Shown here piece after piece: positions 14,857 through 54,050 of a DNA stretch of 64,000 nucleotides. Source of the DNA: Terrimicrobium sacchariphilum (GTDB lineage Bacteria > Verrucomicrobiota > Verrucomicrobiia > Chthoniobacterales > Terrimicrobiaceae); NCBI RefSeq assembly GCF_001613545.1, contig NZ_BDCO01000002.1, positions 2,604,001 to 2,668,000 on the forward strand, read 5' to 3'. Within the stretch, counting starts at the first letter, position 1. The number at the start of each line of letters is the position of its first letter. A program made the translations under genes and the position numbers. The notes under the pieces are model-generated. The model was given only the letters and a program-made list of their open reading frames with translations. It did no database searches and had not been told where the DNA came from.

Positions 14857-14981
14857 CCAGCGGGACCGGTCGAGCGGAGGAGCTAGGGGTATGCCCTGAT
14901 CGGGCTCTCAGGGCAGGCAAGATTTCGTCAAATCGTTTGCACCATACGCCCGGTGGGCGTTCGGTTAACGTAAAGAAAAGC

Positions 14982-16163
14982 ATGCCTGCGGCAATCGATT
15001 CTTGCGTCGTTTTCCCCGAGGCAGCGACGACCTTCATGAAATCTCCCATCGACCCAAATATCATTCCCCTGGATCAGAAGTACCGAGACGAATTTTTGGG
15101 AGTTTTGGCGCACGAGTTGAGAAACCCGCTGGCTCCGTTACGCAATGGCCTGGAGATCATCCGACGGTCGCAGTCCGATCCAAAAATTGTCCACGAGGCC
15201 CTTGAAGTCATGGACCGGCAGTTGCAACAGCTTTCGGGTTTGATCGATGGTCTCGTTGAGGCCAGCAACCTCCGGCAGGGGCTTGTCGAGCTCAAGGTCG
15301 AGACACTCAATATCGGGAGTATTATCGAGGAGTCGGTAAAATCAATTGGCGCCCGGCTCGCGGAAGGCGGCCCGAAGCTGATATTTACGCCGTTGGCAGA
15401 ACCGCTCCTTGTGGAGGGTGATCCCAAGCGGATCAGGCAAATCCTGGTCAACCTGATCGAAAACGCCGTGAAGTATACCGGACGGGACGGGTGCATCGAA
15501 GTCGATGCACATGGGGAATCCGGAGAAGTTGAGATTTCCGTGAAGGATGATGGCATTGGCATTCCTCAGGAGAAACTCGGTGAGATATTCGAGCTGTTCT
15601 CGAAAGCAGATCACTCTCTGGAGCGAGGCCAGGATGGCCTCGGGCTGGGTTTGTCGATTGTTCGCGGTCTGGTCGAGCTTCACGGAGGTTCAGTCGAAGC
15701 TCACAGCGTAGGGCCTGGAGCAGGGAGTCAATTCATCGTGCGCCTGCCGCAGGCAACGTCGGGCGTGGATTCTCCGCGGATTTCCGAGAAACGGCGAGTG
15801 CTGGTGGTTGATGACAATCGCGACTGTGCGTCGAGCCTGGCCATGATGCTCGGAATCATGGGATTTGAAACCGAGACGGCTGCGGATGGTGTCGAGGCAT
15901 TGCGCACCGCTGCCGCTTACCGTCCGGACGCCATCTTCCTTGATATCGCGATGCCCAAGCTCAACGGTTACGACGTTTGCAAGGTGATCCGAGAACAGGC
16001 TTGGGGAAAAGACCCGGTCGTCATTGCGCTCACTGGCTGGGGGCAGAACGACGATATCGAGCGATCCCGAGAAGCGGGCTTTGATCATCATCTGGTCAAA
16101 CCCATTGAGCTTGCCTCGCTTGAGCCGATTGTGAGGGAAATCAAGGCGGTTCATTCGGCATAA
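14982..16163 (+). CDS. Soluble hybrid histidine kinase / response regulator
   Basis: About 393 residues without membrane segments. HisKA begins at KYRDEFLGVLAHELRNPLAP (phospho-accepting His). HATPase_c follows with the N box LIENAVKYTG, G1 VKDDGIGIP and G2 GLGLGLSIVRG. A C-terminal receiver starts at RVLVVDDNRDCASSL, with phospho-acceptor Asp in AIFLDIAMPKLNG and the conserved Lys in HHLVKPIE. No sensor domain precedes the kinase, so the input must come from a partner protein or its short N-terminus. Start choice is uncertain: ATG 14982 or ATG 15036; a TTG at 14937 is also in frame. Confidence 0.88.
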   Translation: MPAAIDSCVVFPEAATTFMKSPIDPNIIPLDQKYRDEFLGVLAHELRNPLAPLRNGLEIIRRSQSDPKIVHEALEVMDRQLQQLSGLIDGLVEASNLRQGLVELKVETLNIGSIIEESVKSIGARLAEGGPKLIFTPLAEPLLVEGDPKRIRQILVNLIENAVKYTGRDGCIEVDAHGESGEVEISVKDDGIGIPQEKLGEIFELFSKADHSLERGQDGLGLGLSIVRGLVELHGGSVEAHSVGPGAGSQFIVRLPQATSGVDSPRISEKRRVLVVDDNRDCASSLAMMLGIMGFETETAADGVEALRTAAAYRPDAIFLDIAMPKLNGYDVCKVIREQAWGKDPVVIALTGWGQNDDIERSREAGFDHHLVKPIELASLEPIVREIKAVHSA

Positions 16164-16226: not shown

Positions 16227-16246
16227 AAATGAGCATATGCTCATTT
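16227..16246. promoter_or_regulatory. 20-bp perfect palindrome, putative operator of the CobW operon
   Basis: The sequence AAATGAGCATATGCTCATTT is its own reverse complement over all 20 bases and lies 20 bases upstream of the CobW gene start. Its core GAGCATATGCTC recurs at 19029-19040 in front of the DUF134 HTH gene and the thioesterase gene. The perfect symmetry, placement and repetition point to the binding site of a dimeric regulator. Confidence 0.7.
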
Positions 16247-16266
16247 ATTTGGCAGATAAATTCCGT

Positions 16267-17271
16267 ATGAAACAGCAGGATGATCGGCTTCCCATTACTG
16301 TAATCTCGGGCTTTCTGGGCTCCGGTAAAACGACTCTACTTAACCATGTCTTGGAAAGTCTTGATCGCCCGCGTGTGGCAGTGATCGAGAATGAGGTCGG
16401 AGAGATTTCCATCGATCATCATCTGGTACTCCGTACCGATATCGGCAGTTTGCAGAATATTAAGGGACGCACATGTTGCACCTCTCGCGAGGAATTCATA
16501 CGACTCCTGCAACTTCTCGCGAAGTATAGGTCCCGGTATGATCGCTTGCTAGTGGAGACCACTGGTGTTGCGCATCCTGGGATGGTCGCCCATGCCATAT
16601 GGGGAGATCCCGTGCTCAAGGAGTGCTTGCGACTGGATGGTGTGGTCACCGTGGTCGATGCGAGGCATATTCATGAGCATCTCGGCGGAGAAGGACACGC
16701 CAGCGAGCAGATCGCATATGCCGACCTGCTGGTCATTAACAAGGTGGATTTGGTTTCGGAGAGCGAACTGCAAGACGCTCTGCAGGCCGTGACACACGTA
16801 AACGGAAAGGCACCTCATCTGCTCGCCGAGGCGGCTATGGTCGATCCTGCCAGGGTGCTGGATATCGGGGGATTTGATCTCATGCGTATTGAGAGTGGCG
16901 TTGGAGGATGCTCGAAGGCCGGAGGGCATGAATCGCGGGGCGACTCTGCGCATCGGCACGAAATCCAGACGGTCAGCATCGAATTACCCGGCGCGATGGA
17001 TGTGGATCGCTTTCAGCACTGGCTGGAGGGATTTGTCATGGAGCATTCTGCTGATCTCTTCCGGAGCAAGGGTATCGCGGCAATACAGGGAATGCAGGAG
17101 CGGGTGCTTTTTCAAGGGGTGCATGGGATGTTCCAGATGGCCTTGGGACAACCATGGATGGAGGCTGCTCGCTCAACTCAGGCCGTCTTTATCGGGCGAA
17201 ATCTCGACAGTAGGGAGATTCGCTCTGCCATGATGGCCTGTTTGTGGGAAGGGAAAGGAGCGATGGTCTAG
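16267..17271 (+). CDS. CobW/P47K family GTPase (metallochaperone-like)
   Basis: 334 residues. The P-loop is in TVISGFLGSGKTTLLNH, Walker B is in RYDRLLVETTGVAHP, and the guanine-specificity motif is in LLVINKVDLV. A C-terminal CobW_C domain holds QTVSIELPGAMDVDRFQHWL. The CxCC metal-binding motif of COG0523 proteins is degenerate (IKGRTCCTSREE keeps only the last two cysteines). A histidine-bearing stretch, HESRGDSAHRHE, lies between the domains. The family delivers Zn, Co or other metals to target enzymes. The start is the ATG after an operator-like palindrome. It is followed 2 bases later by the DUF89 gene, so the two form an operon. Confidence 0.87.
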   Translation: MKQQDDRLPITVISGFLGSGKTTLLNHVLESLDRPRVAVIENEVGEISIDHHLVLRTDIGSLQNIKGRTCCTSREEFIRLLQLLAKYRSRYDRLLVETTGVAHPGMVAHAIWGDPVLKECLRLDGVVTVVDARHIHEHLGGEGHASEQIAYADLLVINKVDLVSESELQDALQAVTHVNGKAPHLLAEAAMVDPARVLDIGGFDLMRIESGVGGCSKAGGHESRGDSAHRHEIQTVSIELPGAMDVDRFQHWLEGFVMEHSADLFRSKGIAAIQGMQERVLFQGVHGMFQMALGQPWMEAARSTQAVFIGRNLDSREIRSAMMACLWEGKGAMV

Positions 17272-17273
17272 CC

Positions 17274-18167
17274 ATGCAACCGGCACTCGAGTGCCTTCCG
17301 TGCCTCGTTCGCCAGGCTGCGGAAGCCGTAGCTTTGAGCGAAAAGCGGACGGAGCGCCGCCCCGCGATACTGAAGCGTATACTCCGCGCCCTGGCCGAAA
17401 CCGATTGGGATCGATCCTCTCCAGCGATGGCTCAAATGATTCATCAAATTGTTCGCGAAGAAACCGGGAACGGGGATCCCTATCGGTCCATCAAGAAGCG
17501 GATGAATCGAGCGGCCCTCGAAGGCATGCCCGTCTGGCGGGAGTTAATGCTGAAATCGGAAAACGCGCGGGAGACTGTGATACGGCTGGCTGCGGCCGGG
17601 AACCTGCTCGATTCCGCGGCGAAGACCAGTATGCAGCCGGAGGATATTCCTCGTCTGGCTTCGTTATGGACGCGTCCTTTGGTGGGCGATCCGCACGATC
17701 TCTTTCGGCTCGCGGACCGCGCGACGCAAATACTTTACCTCGCAGACAATGCGGGAGAAATTGTCTTTGATCGGCTGCTCATTGAAACCCTGCCCACCGA
17801 GAAAGTCACCATGGCGGTCCGGGGAGGGCCGATCCTCAATGACGCGCTGATGGAGGATGCGGCTATGGCTGGTGTCCTAAAGATAGCCTCCGTGGTGTCG
17901 AATGGTTCGGATGCGCCGGGAACCATTCTGGACGACTGCTCCGAGGAGTTTCGCACCCTCTTTGCAACAGCTGACTTGATTGTCGCAAAAGGGCAGGGGA
18001 ACTATGAAACATTAGCCGAGGTTCGCGCGCCGGTGGTTTTCCTTTTTACGGTGAAGTGCGAGATCATAGCCGACCGCATCGGAAAGCCCGTGGGTAGTCT
18101 GATCGCAACGAGAGGCTCAAACTGGACAACGCGCGGTTCAACTTGCCGCAGCCCGAAAAACTTATGA
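17274..18167 (+). CDS. DUF89 / ARMT1-like metal-dependent phosphatase
   Basis: 297 residues of the DUF89 family (COG1578, stand-alone prokaryotic type). The N-terminal LECLPCLVRQAAEAV carries the CxxC of subfamily I. The core shows ILYLADNAGEIVFDRLLIE (metal-binding DNAGE motif) and DLIVAKGQGNYETL, both family hallmarks. Characterised DUF89 proteins are Mn/Ni/Co-dependent damage-control phosphatases that act on phospho-metabolites. The gene sits between CobW and DUF4405 genes, overlapping the latter by ATGA (18164-18167). A metal-supplied phosphatase fits the neighbouring metallochaperone. Confidence 0.85.
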   Translation: MQPALECLPCLVRQAAEAVALSEKRTERRPAILKRILRALAETDWDRSSPAMAQMIHQIVREETGNGDPYRSIKKRMNRAALEGMPVWRELMLKSENARETVIRLAAAGNLLDSAAKTSMQPEDIPRLASLWTRPLVGDPHDLFRLADRATQILYLADNAGEIVFDRLLIETLPTEKVTMAVRGGPILNDALMEDAAMAGVLKIASVVSNGSDAPGTILDDCSEEFRTLFATADLIVAKGQGNYETLAEVRAPVVFLFTVKCEIIADRIGKPVGSLIATRGSNWTTRGSTCRSPKNL

Positions 18168-18568
18168 GAACCTACGCCAATCGCATTCTTAATCTACTCC
18201 TTTGGTTAACGCTCTGCTTTCTGGCTGGCACTGGTTTCCTTCTCGCCTTTCGATTGTTGCCGGGTTCCCGTGGCGGCTCTGGTCTGCAAGCACTTGGGAT
18301 GGAACGCCATGATTGGAGGGATCTGCACACGTGGAGCAGCTATGCCTTCCTGGCATTGCTCATGGTTCATCTTTGGATGCACTGGCAATGGATATGGAAG
18401 GTCGCAAGCCAGCGTCGCTTTTGGCTCCTCGGCTCAGGATTCGGCGCAGGCGTGTTTATTCTGATATGGCTGACTTTCCTGCCCGTTTCCGAGCGGGCAG
18501 GGGAGAGGGATGGCAGGGGGCATCACGGGCGACACGACCGTATATCCGTGGAGAGCTCTTTACCCTGA
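18164..18568 (+). CDS. DUF4405-type membrane protein
   Basis: 134 residues with three hydrophobic helices (about 8-27, 46-66, 77-97). Histidines fall in ERHDWRDLHTWSSYAF and MVHLWMHWQWIW, the positions expected for heme or metal coordination in the DUF4405/cytochrome b561-like group. The polar tail is His/Arg-rich (GRGHHGRHDR). It is coupled to the DUF89 gene by a 4-base overlap. Its last 46 bases overlap the convergent thioesterase gene, so the exact C-terminus, or one of the two ends, may have been added late. An electron-transfer role is inferred only from the histidine pattern. Confidence 0.72.
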   Translation: MRTYANRILNLLLWLTLCFLAGTGFLLAFRLLPGSRGGSGLQALGMERHDWRDLHTWSSYAFLALLMVHLWMHWQWIWKVASQRRFWLLGSGFGAGVFILIWLTFLPVSERAGERDGRGHHGRHDRISVESSLP

Positions 18569-19020
18569 GGAGTTCCCTCACGGATCTCCATGAACTTGGC
18601 TGATGCTCGCGCGGCAAGCCTGTCCTTCTGGATGATTTCGGCCCGACATTGGTAGATCCGATGGCGGGATGCTTCAACCCAGCCTCGCACTGTTATGGCT
18701 GAGTCGAAACCAACACCATGCAGATATCGGACAGTCAGTTCGGCGGTTACGCCGGCGATTCCACGAGCGAACAAGGCATGGACAATGGCGCTGTCCATCA
18801 TGGTGGCAAGGATACCCCCGTGTATACGATCTGGATAGCTGCTGAATATTTGCAGAGGCTGCCATGCTCCCTCGGCAACGCCATCCGGATTGATTGCAAA
18901 ACGCAGATTGAGGCCGTCCGGATTTTCTTTTCCGCAAGCGAAGCATTGATGATGGCTGGTGATGGCGGGATGCGGGTATCGTCCCGCAGAGGAACGGAGG
19001 AGGGGAAGTCGGTCTTCCAT
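18523..19020 (-). CDS. PaaI-family hotdog thioesterase
   Basis: 165 residues, hotdog fold. The N-terminal HQCFACGKENPDGLNLRF is the CFxCG...NPxGL signature, and SYPDRIHGGILATMMDSAI contains the HGG...D catalytic region of 4HBT/PaaI acyl-CoA thioesterases. ELTVRYLHGV is the following strand. It hydrolyses an acyl-CoA thioester; the acyl group is not predictable. It diverges from the DUF134 gene over a 100-base region holding a GAGCATATGCTC palindrome 8 bases upstream of its start, so the two may be co-regulated. Its 3' end overlaps DUF4405. Confidence 0.88.
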   Translation of the reverse strand: MEDRLPLLRSSAGRYPHPAITSHHQCFACGKENPDGLNLRFAINPDGVAEGAWQPLQIFSSYPDRIHGGILATMMDSAIVHALFARGIAGVTAELTVRYLHGVGFDSAITVRGWVEASRHRIYQCRAEIIQKDRLAARASAKFMEIREGTPQGKELSTDIRSCRP

Positions 19021-19028
19021 GCATTATC

Positions 19029-19040
19029 GAGCATATGCTC
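19029..19040. promoter_or_regulatory. Second GAGCATATGCTC palindrome, divergent thioesterase/DUF134 region
   Basis: A 12-base perfect palindrome GAGCATATGCTC whose right flank continues CAT as in the 16227-16246 site (one mismatch over the 14-base TGAGCATATGCTCA). It lies just upstream of the minus-strand thioesterase start and about 80 bases upstream of the DUF134 start. This is consistent with autoregulation by the DUF134 protein, which is an inference. Confidence 0.6.
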
Positions 19041-19120
19041 ATATCGCAATTGGTCAATTGCCTATGCCCCGGGATGGGAATTGCCAGGCGGGCAGGTTGA
19101 CATGAGGTTCAAATGCGCTT

Positions 19121-19417
19121 ATGCCCAATATGACTCGTATGCCTCGCCCTTCGTGTCCGCGCAAGATCGCTCATCTACCTCCCGCCACATATTTCAAACC
19201 AGCGGGCATTCCTTTGCGAGAGATCCGGGAGATTCGACTTGCCGCAGACGAACTTGAAGCCATGAGACTGGCAGATTACGAGGGGTTGTATAATGTCGAT
19301 GCCGCTGAGCGGATGGGGGTCTCGCGACAGACCTTTGATCGCATTGTCAACCGGGCTAGAAAGAAGGTCTCGGAAGCCTTGGTGAATGGCTGTGCTTTAC
19401 GGGTCGAGGGAGTTTGA
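19121..19417 (+). CDS. DUF134 (COG1342) helix-turn-helix protein
   Basis: 98 residues matching the DUF134/COG1342 family: RPSCPRKIAHLPPATYFKP at the N-terminus, then LREIREIRLAADELEAMRL. The closing YNVDAAERMGVSRQTFDRIV is a sigma-region-4-like HTH. Family members are predicted DNA-binding proteins, often beside Fe-Mo-cofactor-type, Mrp or metal genes in anaerobes; few have been tested. Start may be the ATG at 19121 or the one three codons on. The palindrome about 80 bases upstream, repeated before the CobW operon, makes this the likeliest cognate regulator. The next gene is the tautomerase in the same direction. Confidence 0.88.
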   Translation: MPNMTRMPRPSCPRKIAHLPPATYFKPAGIPLREIREIRLAADELEAMRLADYEGLYNVDAAERMGVSRQTFDRIVNRARKKVSEALVNGCALRVEGV

Positions 19418-19487
19418 CGGAAATACCTGGATTTTATCCTGCCTTCCTTGGCTTTCGACGAATGGATGAGGTATTGCTGACGGCGAT

Positions 19488-19703
19488 ATGCCATACGTCA
19501 ATCTTCAGATCACCAAGGGGGCAACCCGTGAACAAAAGCAGCGACTCGTGGCGGATTTCACGGCGAGCCTGGTCAATACCCTCGGTAAAAAGCCCGAGCA
19601 CATCCACATCGTCATCGAGGAAGTCCTTGAGGAAAACTGGGGATTTGCGGGAATGCTTACGGACGATTTCCGCGCGAAGGAGCGACATGCCCCACAGGGA
19701 TAG
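19488..19703 (+). CDS. 4-oxalocrotonate tautomerase family protein
   Basis: 71 residues, the standard size of a 4-OT monomer. Pro2 follows the initiator Met (MPYVNLQITKGATREQK) and would be the catalytic N-terminal proline after Met removal. The C-terminal part VIEEVLEENWGFAGMLTDDF is the usual EEV..NWG(F/I)GG-like motif. Such enzymes tautomerise enol/keto acids or act as small dehalogenases; the substrate is unknown. It lies 70 bases after DUF134 on the same strand, so it may be in the same transcript. Confidence 0.88.
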   Translation: MPYVNLQITKGATREQKQRLVADFTASLVNTLGKKPEHIHIVIEEVLEENWGFAGMLTDDFRAKERHAPQG

Positions 19704-53604: not shown

Positions 53605-54039
53605 ATGAAGCAAAAGGAATCCAAAAAAGGGGGGCGGGTGAGGGATGTAGCTTCGGCCCACCCATCCGCTCTCGACGTGACCACCTCGACCAAATCAGCG
53701 GGGGAAAAGTTGAAACGGCTCAATACAGAGAAGTTTCCTGTCGCCAAGGGCGATAAGCTCGTTGGACGGACGAACGATCTCAATCCCGAGCGATCTGCTG
53801 CGCGGTTCGGACACGATCCAGAGTCCACCACCATAGGGGAAACGGAACTGAGCGAGGCAGTGTACTGCTATGAAGATCAATCGTCCGACGAAGCAAAAAA
53901 GATCATGTTGGAGAATGGACTCGAACATATGCCGGTCGTCGACCGCGAACTGCGAATTGTCGGGATCGTTTCCCTCAAGTCGTTGAAAACAGGAGAGGTG
54001 CCGGAACCCCCGAAGACCAAAAAACGAAAGGCGGCCTAG
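53605..54039 (+). CDS. CBS-domain pair protein
   Basis: 144 residues. Two CBS-like repeats are visible, one around GEKLKRLNTEKFPVAKGDKL and one around AKKIMLENGLEHMPVVDREL with RIVGIVSLKSL. The N- and C-termini are basic (KTKKRKAA at the end). CBS pairs bind adenosyl ligands such as AMP or ATP and often act as energy sensors. The start is the ATG at 53605. The stop codon TAG lies inside the palindrome of its own terminator. Confidence 0.8.
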   Translation: MKQKESKKGGRVRDVASAHPSALDVTTSTKSAGEKLKRLNTEKFPVAKGDKLVGRTNDLNPERSAARFGHDPESTTIGETELSEAVYCYEDQSSDEAKKIMLENGLEHMPVVDRELRIVGIVSLKSLKTGEVPEPPKTKKRKAA

Positions 54040-54050
54040 GCCGCCTTTCG
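54025..54050. terminator. 26-bp palindromic terminator overlapping the CBS gene stop
   Basis: A perfect palindrome with 12-base arms CGAAAGGCGGCC and GGCCGCCTTTCG around TA. The stop codon TAG (54037-54039) is at its centre. It lies between the CBS gene (+) and a convergent membrane-protein gene (-), so it may act in both directions. The T-run is short. Confidence 0.6.

Follow-up and report, generated by a model that had tools for sequence, protein, structure and literature searches.

A gene of the DUF134 family (PF02001), which we take to be identical with UPF0251 and COG1342, lies in a 64,000-nucleotide stretch of the Terrimicrobium sacchariphilum genome (contig NZ_BDCO01000002.1, positions 2,604,001 to 2,668,000), here called the window. 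The gene is preceded by a CobW-DUF89-DUF4405 operon and a divergently oriented thioesterase gene and followed by a tautomerase-like gene (Table 1). As far as sequence comparison can tell, the DUF134 protein very probably binds the palindrome TGAGCATATGCTCA and represses, from the core promoter, the DUF134 gene as well as the neighbouring CobW-DUF89-DUF4405 and thioesterase genes. A first-pass annotation, made from the letters of the DNA, had already reported the gene families and the palindromes, and these observations held. A perfect palindrome of 20 base pairs (bp) stands ahead of the operon, its core GAGCATATGCTC recurs in the divergent thioesterase/DUF134 region at 19029-19040, and Pfam matches were obtained for CobW together with CobW_C, DUF89, DUF4405, 4HBT, DUF134 and the tautomerase after it.

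Table 1. Genes, likely promoter and putative operators at the DUF134 locus of the window
Feature	Position	Strand	Evidence and remarks
CobW/COG0523-type GTPase	16267..17271	+	PF02492 1.8e-47, PF07683 2e-21; GRTCC instead of CxCC
DUF89 / ARMT1-like phosphatase	17274..18167	+	PF01937 1.1e-60; 205.9 bits against a cut-off of 25
DUF4405 protein	18164..18568	+	PF14358 7.6e-17
PaaI-like 4HBT thioesterase, divergent from DUF134	18523..19020	-	PF03061 4.4e-10
DUF134 promoter (likely)	19097..19125	+	TTGACA 19097-19102, 17-bp spacer, TATGCC 19120-19125
DUF134 (PF02001) regulator, 92 amino acids	19139..19417	+	PF02001 4.8e-22, scanned from 19121; recognition helix SRQTFDRIV
4-oxalocrotonate-tautomerase-like protein	19488..19703	+	PF01361 7.5e-17
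Operator 1 (putative)	16227..16246	.	perfect 20-bp palindrome AAATGAGCATATGCTCATTT ahead of CobW (16267)
Operator 2 (putative)	19028..19041	.	CGAGCATATGCTCA in the divergent thioesterase/DUF134 intergenic region, where relatives have variants of it
Operator 3 (putative, weak, 3 mismatches)	19114..19127	.	TGCGCTTATGCCCA on the -10 of DUF134

The DUF134 protein scored 78.8 bits against PF02001 (cut-off 27), covering positions 1-92 of the 98 in the profile, and its gene is the only one of the family in the genome. The gene starts given in the table are the most likely ones. For DUF134, 19139 was preferred because MPRPSCPRK is the usual start of the family, and for CobW, 16267 was preferred because the ATG at 16237 falls inside the palindrome.

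The core GAGCATATGCTC is the sole perfect 12-bp palindrome occurring twice in the window, and the 14-mer around its second copy differs from TGAGCATATGCTCA by one mismatch. With up to three mismatches allowed, the window holds 7 matches versus 2.42 expected, so that only the exact and the one-mismatch copies are informative. The many unrelated hits that, according to the first-pass annotation, would refute the DUF134 regulon were not seen in the whole genome (4,751,807 bases): the core occurs in 3 exact copies (reversed control word, 0), and 15 sites lie within two mismatches of the 14-mer (reversed control, 3). Overlap of these 15 sites with open reading frames (ORFs) was judged on pieces of 3 kilobases (kb) with mechanically called ORFs, and only the sites at 16230 and 19028 lie outside convincing ones. 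No ORF of at least 60 amino acids runs across the former, and the latter is overlapped only by ORFs conflicting with the thioesterase and DUF134 genes. The other 13 sites fall in ORFs of 260-843 amino acids (12 sites) or in one of 155 amino acids. The third exact copy of the core was rejected as a target; it lies within the codons for LEHMLF inside the coding sequence of a peptidase-like ORF, presumably an M16 peptidase by its look, the family name being taken from its motif.

The weak third copy, absent from the first-pass annotation, overlaps the TTGACA-17-TATGCC promoter directly ahead of DUF134, and its arms read TGCG and TGGG. Its counterpart in a congener (locus L227) is AGAGCTTATGCCCA, found at the same place, where the promoter arrangement is likewise readable.

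Palindrome and DUF134 genes across genomes

The arrangement was compared in relatives of the window's genome. One congener (G289) keeps the order kinase-CobW-DUF89-DUF4405-thioesterase-DUF134-tautomerase and carries TGGGCATATGCTCA ahead of CobW (L227:5072). In another congener (G288), CobW-DUF89-thioesterase-DUF134 is kept. Near DUF134 in 10 relatives' loci, CobW was found 3 times, DUF89 5 times, DUF4405 twice, the thioesterase 6 times and the tautomerase once; none of the five was found in 39 control loci, which are shorter (about 3 kb or less for the controls and the Pfam-picked loci, 8-16 kb for the relatives' loci and at most 8 kb for the motif loci). Of the gene set put forward in the first-pass annotation, CobW, DUF89, DUF4405 and the thioesterase recur as neighbours in relatives; adjacency of the tautomerase to DUF134 was seen in G289 only. 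The first-pass annotation conjectured, further, a response for which the membrane protein, the thioesterase and the tautomerase would be needed. In the window, the tautomerase-like gene is possibly co-transcribed with DUF134. All 10 relatives' DUF134 loci have a variant of the palindrome with at most two mismatches ahead of DUF134, CobW or the thioesterase, a count made without a shuffle control.

Further afield, the motif and the gene were each taken as a starting point. For the motif-first scan, the 16-mer ATGAGCATATGCTCAT was sought in one genome per species, and at least 116 loci were listed; DUF134 genes in these loci were found with a profile grown from the window protein. Among the matches listed, to which all counts of motif loci refer, 63 of the 116 loci carry a DUF134 ORF. 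The 16-mer precedes the chosen DUF134 start by no more than 200 bp in 56 of these loci, and in 49 of them by no more than 60 bp. The 63 loci come from at least 12 named phyla, the best represented being Chloroflexota (10), Ignavibacteriota (7), Omnitrophota (6), Bacteroidota (5) and Thermodesulfobacteriota (5). Matches to DUF134 above the cut-off are present in 52 of 288 sampled genomes of the window's phylum and in 6 of the 58 nearest relatives. In the phyla of a Desulfobacterales, an Ignavibacteriales and a Dehalococcoidales genome, they were found in 45 of 148, 39 of 148 and 16 of 121 sampled genomes, respectively.

The gene-first set was made of DUF134 loci picked by Pfam in four phylum samples, with 112 of 119 passing E <= 1e-10, and the 100 bp upstream of each gene were read. 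These loci are the best-scoring matches and no random draw, and in three of the phylum samples the central genome carried the motif. Three of the 112 loci (L271, L288 and L293) are not independent of the motif, as their genomes (G346 and G369) were first found by it. Weak matches were left out, as were over-cut-off matches in G028, G039, G093, G172, G340, G627 (C97), G632, G674, G701, G710, G744, G756 and G760. The most enriched upstream 6-mer was CATATG, the centre of the palindrome arms discussed below, which occurred in 39 of the 112 loci versus 3.75 in shuffles; TTGACA came second. TGNNCATATGNNCA was present in 22 of the 112 loci; shuffling the pooled set 20 times never produced it, and a separate Verrucomicrobiota run gave a single TGNNCATATGNNCA in shuffles. 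The arms around CATATG vary among these loci and read TGAG, TGAA, TGTG, TTGG or TGCT.

Recognition helix and operator arms

In the Pfam-picked loci, the palindrome arms follow the residues of the recognition helix SR-X1-T-F-X2-X3. The arms TGAG and TGGG go with R at X3, TGAA with S or T at X2, TTGG and TTAG with N or L at X3, TGTG with G at X1, and TGCT with H at X1. This rule was written down before 60 held-out loci were fetched. It was obeyed in 31 of the 33 held-out loci that could be scored, a result equalled by none of 2000 label shuffles (best 21). Four held-out loci (L355, L356, L360 and L366) had been looked at before; of these, L366 alone entered the scoring of 33 loci. The rule was also obeyed in 49 of 52 scorable training loci; in the motif-picked set, where 53 of 56 agreed, covariation cannot show, since all loci were chosen for one fixed motif.

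Mutual information was also calculated without classes for the pooled training and held-out loci (86 loci, 91 protein columns). Operator positions 2, 3 and 4 had their highest mutual information with columns 68, 64 and 67, respectively. Columns 64, 67 and 68 correspond to the first two turns of a helix modelled at 63-83. Moreover, DUF134 pairs from different phylum samples that are less than 40% identical outside the helix have the half-site in common in 64 of 77 cases when they belong to the same helix class, compared with 5 of 465 cases when their classes differ, which counts against mere ancestry. A tree built without the helix requires a minimum of 14 helix-class changes. Since the motif-first and gene-first searches converge and the operator letters covary with residues of the recognition helix, these comparisons strongly indicate that DUF134 itself binds the palindrome; the binding proposed in the first-pass annotation is thus strongly supported.

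A simple residue-to-base code can be proposed for a half-site T-N2-N3-N4-C-A-T. An R at X3 would specify G2, and N or L would specify T2; G at X1 would specify T3, and H would specify C3; S or T (perhaps H) at X2 would specify A4, the other residues mostly G4. The window protein has the helix SRQTFDRI, and the arms are TGAG at 16230 and one TGAG plus one CGAG at 19028; this agrees with R at X3, but D at X2 is rare and the weak third site deviates with its TGCG and TGGG arms. In its half-site T-G-A-G-C-A-T, X3 would read position 2, X1 position 3 and X2 position 4. If the code is true, replacing R by N at X3 would be expected to move the preference from TGAG arms (TGAGCATATGCTCA) to TTGG arms (TTGGCATATGCCAA).

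The AlphaFold model of the DUF134 protein (predicted local distance difference test score 88.8) includes the helix 63-83 mentioned above. Its best matches among solved folds are mostly domains of sigma factor region 4, which recognises the -35 element; the helix-turn-helix (HTH) superposes on the 12 best with a root-mean-square deviation of 0.5-0.9 Å over 42-50 columns. The Foldseek E-values of these matches are weak (best 0.049), and a sequence search of the PDB with DUF134 returned only hits with E >= 0.42. In contrast to sigma factors, DUF134 lacks the other sigma regions, and its predicted target is a palindrome inside the core promoter. With its relatives, the window protein shares the N-terminal MPRP..R.I and the HTH core. 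Many members of the family carry a C-terminal Zn-ribbon-like or NifX-like extension, which the window protein lacks. Among 235 DUF134 proteins, 81 end in a Zn-ribbon-like CxxC pair, 32 are long and 57 are short like that of the window. Two long proteins (L136:1012-1980 and L032:6328-7122) are DUF134-Nitro_FeMo-Co fusions by Pfam scan, and the long members in L033, L114, L137, L138 and L149 look like them. The fused NifX-like Nitro_FeMo-Co domain could serve as a sensor.

Mode of action and rival explanations

In all sets together, the distance from the palindrome to the start codon has a median of 22 bp (143 sites), with 127 sites within 5-60 bp. A -35-like hexamer lies 16-45 bp ahead of the palindrome centre at 102 of 142 sites versus 31.5 in shuffles. 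As it does so in several registers, the operator would sit on the -10 element or between it and the gene. Exact copies of the 14-mer were counted in the genomes of 50 of the 63 DUF134 loci: 45 genomes have one and 5 have two or three. DUF134 is therefore seen as probably a mostly local autoregulator. The "regulon" of the first-pass annotation stands as a local cluster; a genome-wide regulon was rejected, given the single exact 14-mer in 45 of 50 genomes and the location of the window genome's own near-sites mostly in ORFs.

The following mode of action is proposed. The DUF134 protein, with its sigma-region-4-like HTH, would bind TGAGCATATGCTCA, presumably as a dimer. Placed on the core promoter, on the -10 element or between it and the gene, it would block RNA polymerase at its own gene, at the CobW-DUF89-DUF4405 operon and at the divergent thioesterase gene, until a signal, probably a metal or a metal cofactor, lifts the repression. 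From the core-promoter position of the sites, we infer repression by polymerase block and not activation; likewise inferred are that the protein dimerises, what the signal is and that the targets have a role in metal trafficking or repair. Local autorepression is judged the likeliest mode, and, among known types of regulators, the DUF134 system would be a small HTH autorepressor.

The fold of DUF134 could be taken in another sense. With matches mostly to sigma region 4 domains, the bound protein might recruit RNA polymerase and activate the operons. Activators usually stand upstream of the -35 element, whereas sites preceded by a -35-like hexamer and close to the start codon are in the position typical of repressors, and activation is judged unlikely. 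A different regulator is suggested by Bacilli, in which the identical 16-mer occurs in 8 loci (L011, L040, L046, L048, L080, L094, L098 and L109), with an ArsR-family gene near in 6 and a CzcD-type efflux gene near in 7 (clusters C4 and C3). Of 37 flanking proteins, 3 matched HTH_5 and 2 matched Cation_efflux; the L048 gene was confirmed as HTH_5. In these loci, an ArsR/SmtB-type metal sensor (CzrA type) seemingly recognises the palindrome. ArsR/SmtB sensors, a protein family unrelated to DUF134, act by local autorepression of metal genes, so that the same operator word is seemingly shared by regulators of two separate families. That such a sensor takes the place of DUF134 as the binder is very improbable. 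A model of the Bacilli ArsR proteins found no relatives among the 434 ORFs of the window, the space searched, and ArsR was rejected as the binder there. L014 is the one member of the ArsR cluster inside a DUF134 locus, and the covariation of the operator arms with DUF134 helix residues runs contrary to an ArsR protein as the binder. Finally, the palindrome might be a chance word, or an RNA hairpin or terminator, of no regulatory meaning. Chance copies do occur, with 51 exact 12-mers in the 288 genomes, only about 7 of them near a DUF134 gene, and 10 for the reversed control. Position, presence in relatives, covariation and the absence of a T-run after 16227-16246 all speak against this explanation, which is hardly credible; it was rejected on the 3 genomic copies versus 0 in the control, the CATATG enrichment and the covariation.

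The 12-mer counts and the Bacilli loci, where the word occurs with other regulators, also weigh against the proposed action of DUF134, together with the following observations. In 7 of the 63 motif-picked DUF134 loci, the palindrome lies outside the 200 bp next to DUF134, and most DUF134 loci of the Ignavibacteriales-centred sample have no such upstream site. A scorable pair of site and helix is missing in 60 of the 112 Pfam-picked and 27 of the 60 held-out loci. The rule fails in 3 of 52 training loci, 2 of 33 held-out loci and 3 of 56 motif-picked loci, and the held-out set contains close relatives of training loci. Helix classes changed rarely, and few of the changes fall on well-supported branches, where each of the 3 classes tested has one independent pair; by this test, which has no power, the covariation is not significant. 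In the window, D at X2 is rare among DUF134 helices, and the third putative operator is off-consensus.

In the wider proposal, which we consider reasonably likely, DUF134 proteins would be widespread local repressors with a sigma-region-4-like fold and a simple code. They would control a module for metal-cofactor trafficking and repair comprising NifX, Mrp-type ATPase, DUF364, DUF5320, DUF89 and CobW, and in the window's clade they would have come to control the set CobW-DUF89-DUF4405-thioesterase. With the operator defined and a code linking residues to bases, targets could be predicted from sequence, and a single derepressed mutant would make the functions of the neighbours (DUF4405, DUF5320, DUF89 and NifX-like) testable. 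The family is also a possible source of small orthogonal repressors for engineering, and it offers a foothold on the signal to which NifX/Mrp-type ATPase clusters respond. The family itself is known. Judged by titles and the beginnings of abstracts, none of the open-access papers searched treats an operator, target or ligand of DUF134, COG1342 or UPF0251, and none relevant to the palindrome motif was found among them; the operator and the code appear undescribed in that literature. One paper mentions UPF0251 in a table of mutations, with a possible transposon insertion.

Metal link and neighbouring genes

Outside the window's clade, the usual partner of DUF134 is a NifX-like protein. Among the motif loci, NifX-like matches, counted without a query that is DUF5320, were obtained in 37 of the 63 with DUF134 and in 9 of the 53 that lack it; the 39 controls had none. 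Of 74 genes following DUF134, Pfam assigned 23 to Nitro_FeMo-Co, 8 to DUF5320, 4 to NUBPL/Mrp-type ATPase and 3 to DUF364. In the window's own genome, the one NifX match is away from the 15 near-palindrome sites. In two loci (L006 and L086), DUF89 follows the palindrome, with no DUF134 ORF within the stretch read. Two motif loci without DUF134 (L063 and L071) have a small set of three genes in common next to the palindrome (clusters C73-C75), and both give NifX-like matches. With NifX, Mrp-type ATPases, DUF364, DUF89 and CobW as neighbours, the gene context points to metals or metal cofactors as the concern of the DUF134 system. To this extent, neighbouring genes alone support the metal link of the first-pass annotation.

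The CobW protein of the window possesses both the G domain and the CobW_C domain. COG0523 proteins (CobW, ZigA, YjiA) are linked to zinc homeostasis (PMC2770081), and the COG0523-type GTPase of the window presumably acts in a metal context. The parts of that paper available to us describe no DUF134 system. COG0523 proteins have a CxCC metal motif (PMC9164220), whereas the window protein has RxCC. The GRTCC form was seen in the window protein and in the 3 relatives examined, and the first metal-binding cysteine is gone in all four. The DUF4405 protein is probably membrane-bound; its match to the cytochrome b561-like family PF01292 (2.3e-06) is weak and under the cut-off.

The only other perfect 20-bp palindrome of the window (54028-54047) is GC-rich, lies at the end of an ORF and is probably a transcription terminator. 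The gene at 14937-16163, immediately ahead of the CobW operon, encodes a histidine kinase that also has a receiver domain (HisKA, HATPase_c, Response_reg), and the kinase gene keeps this place in the congener G289.

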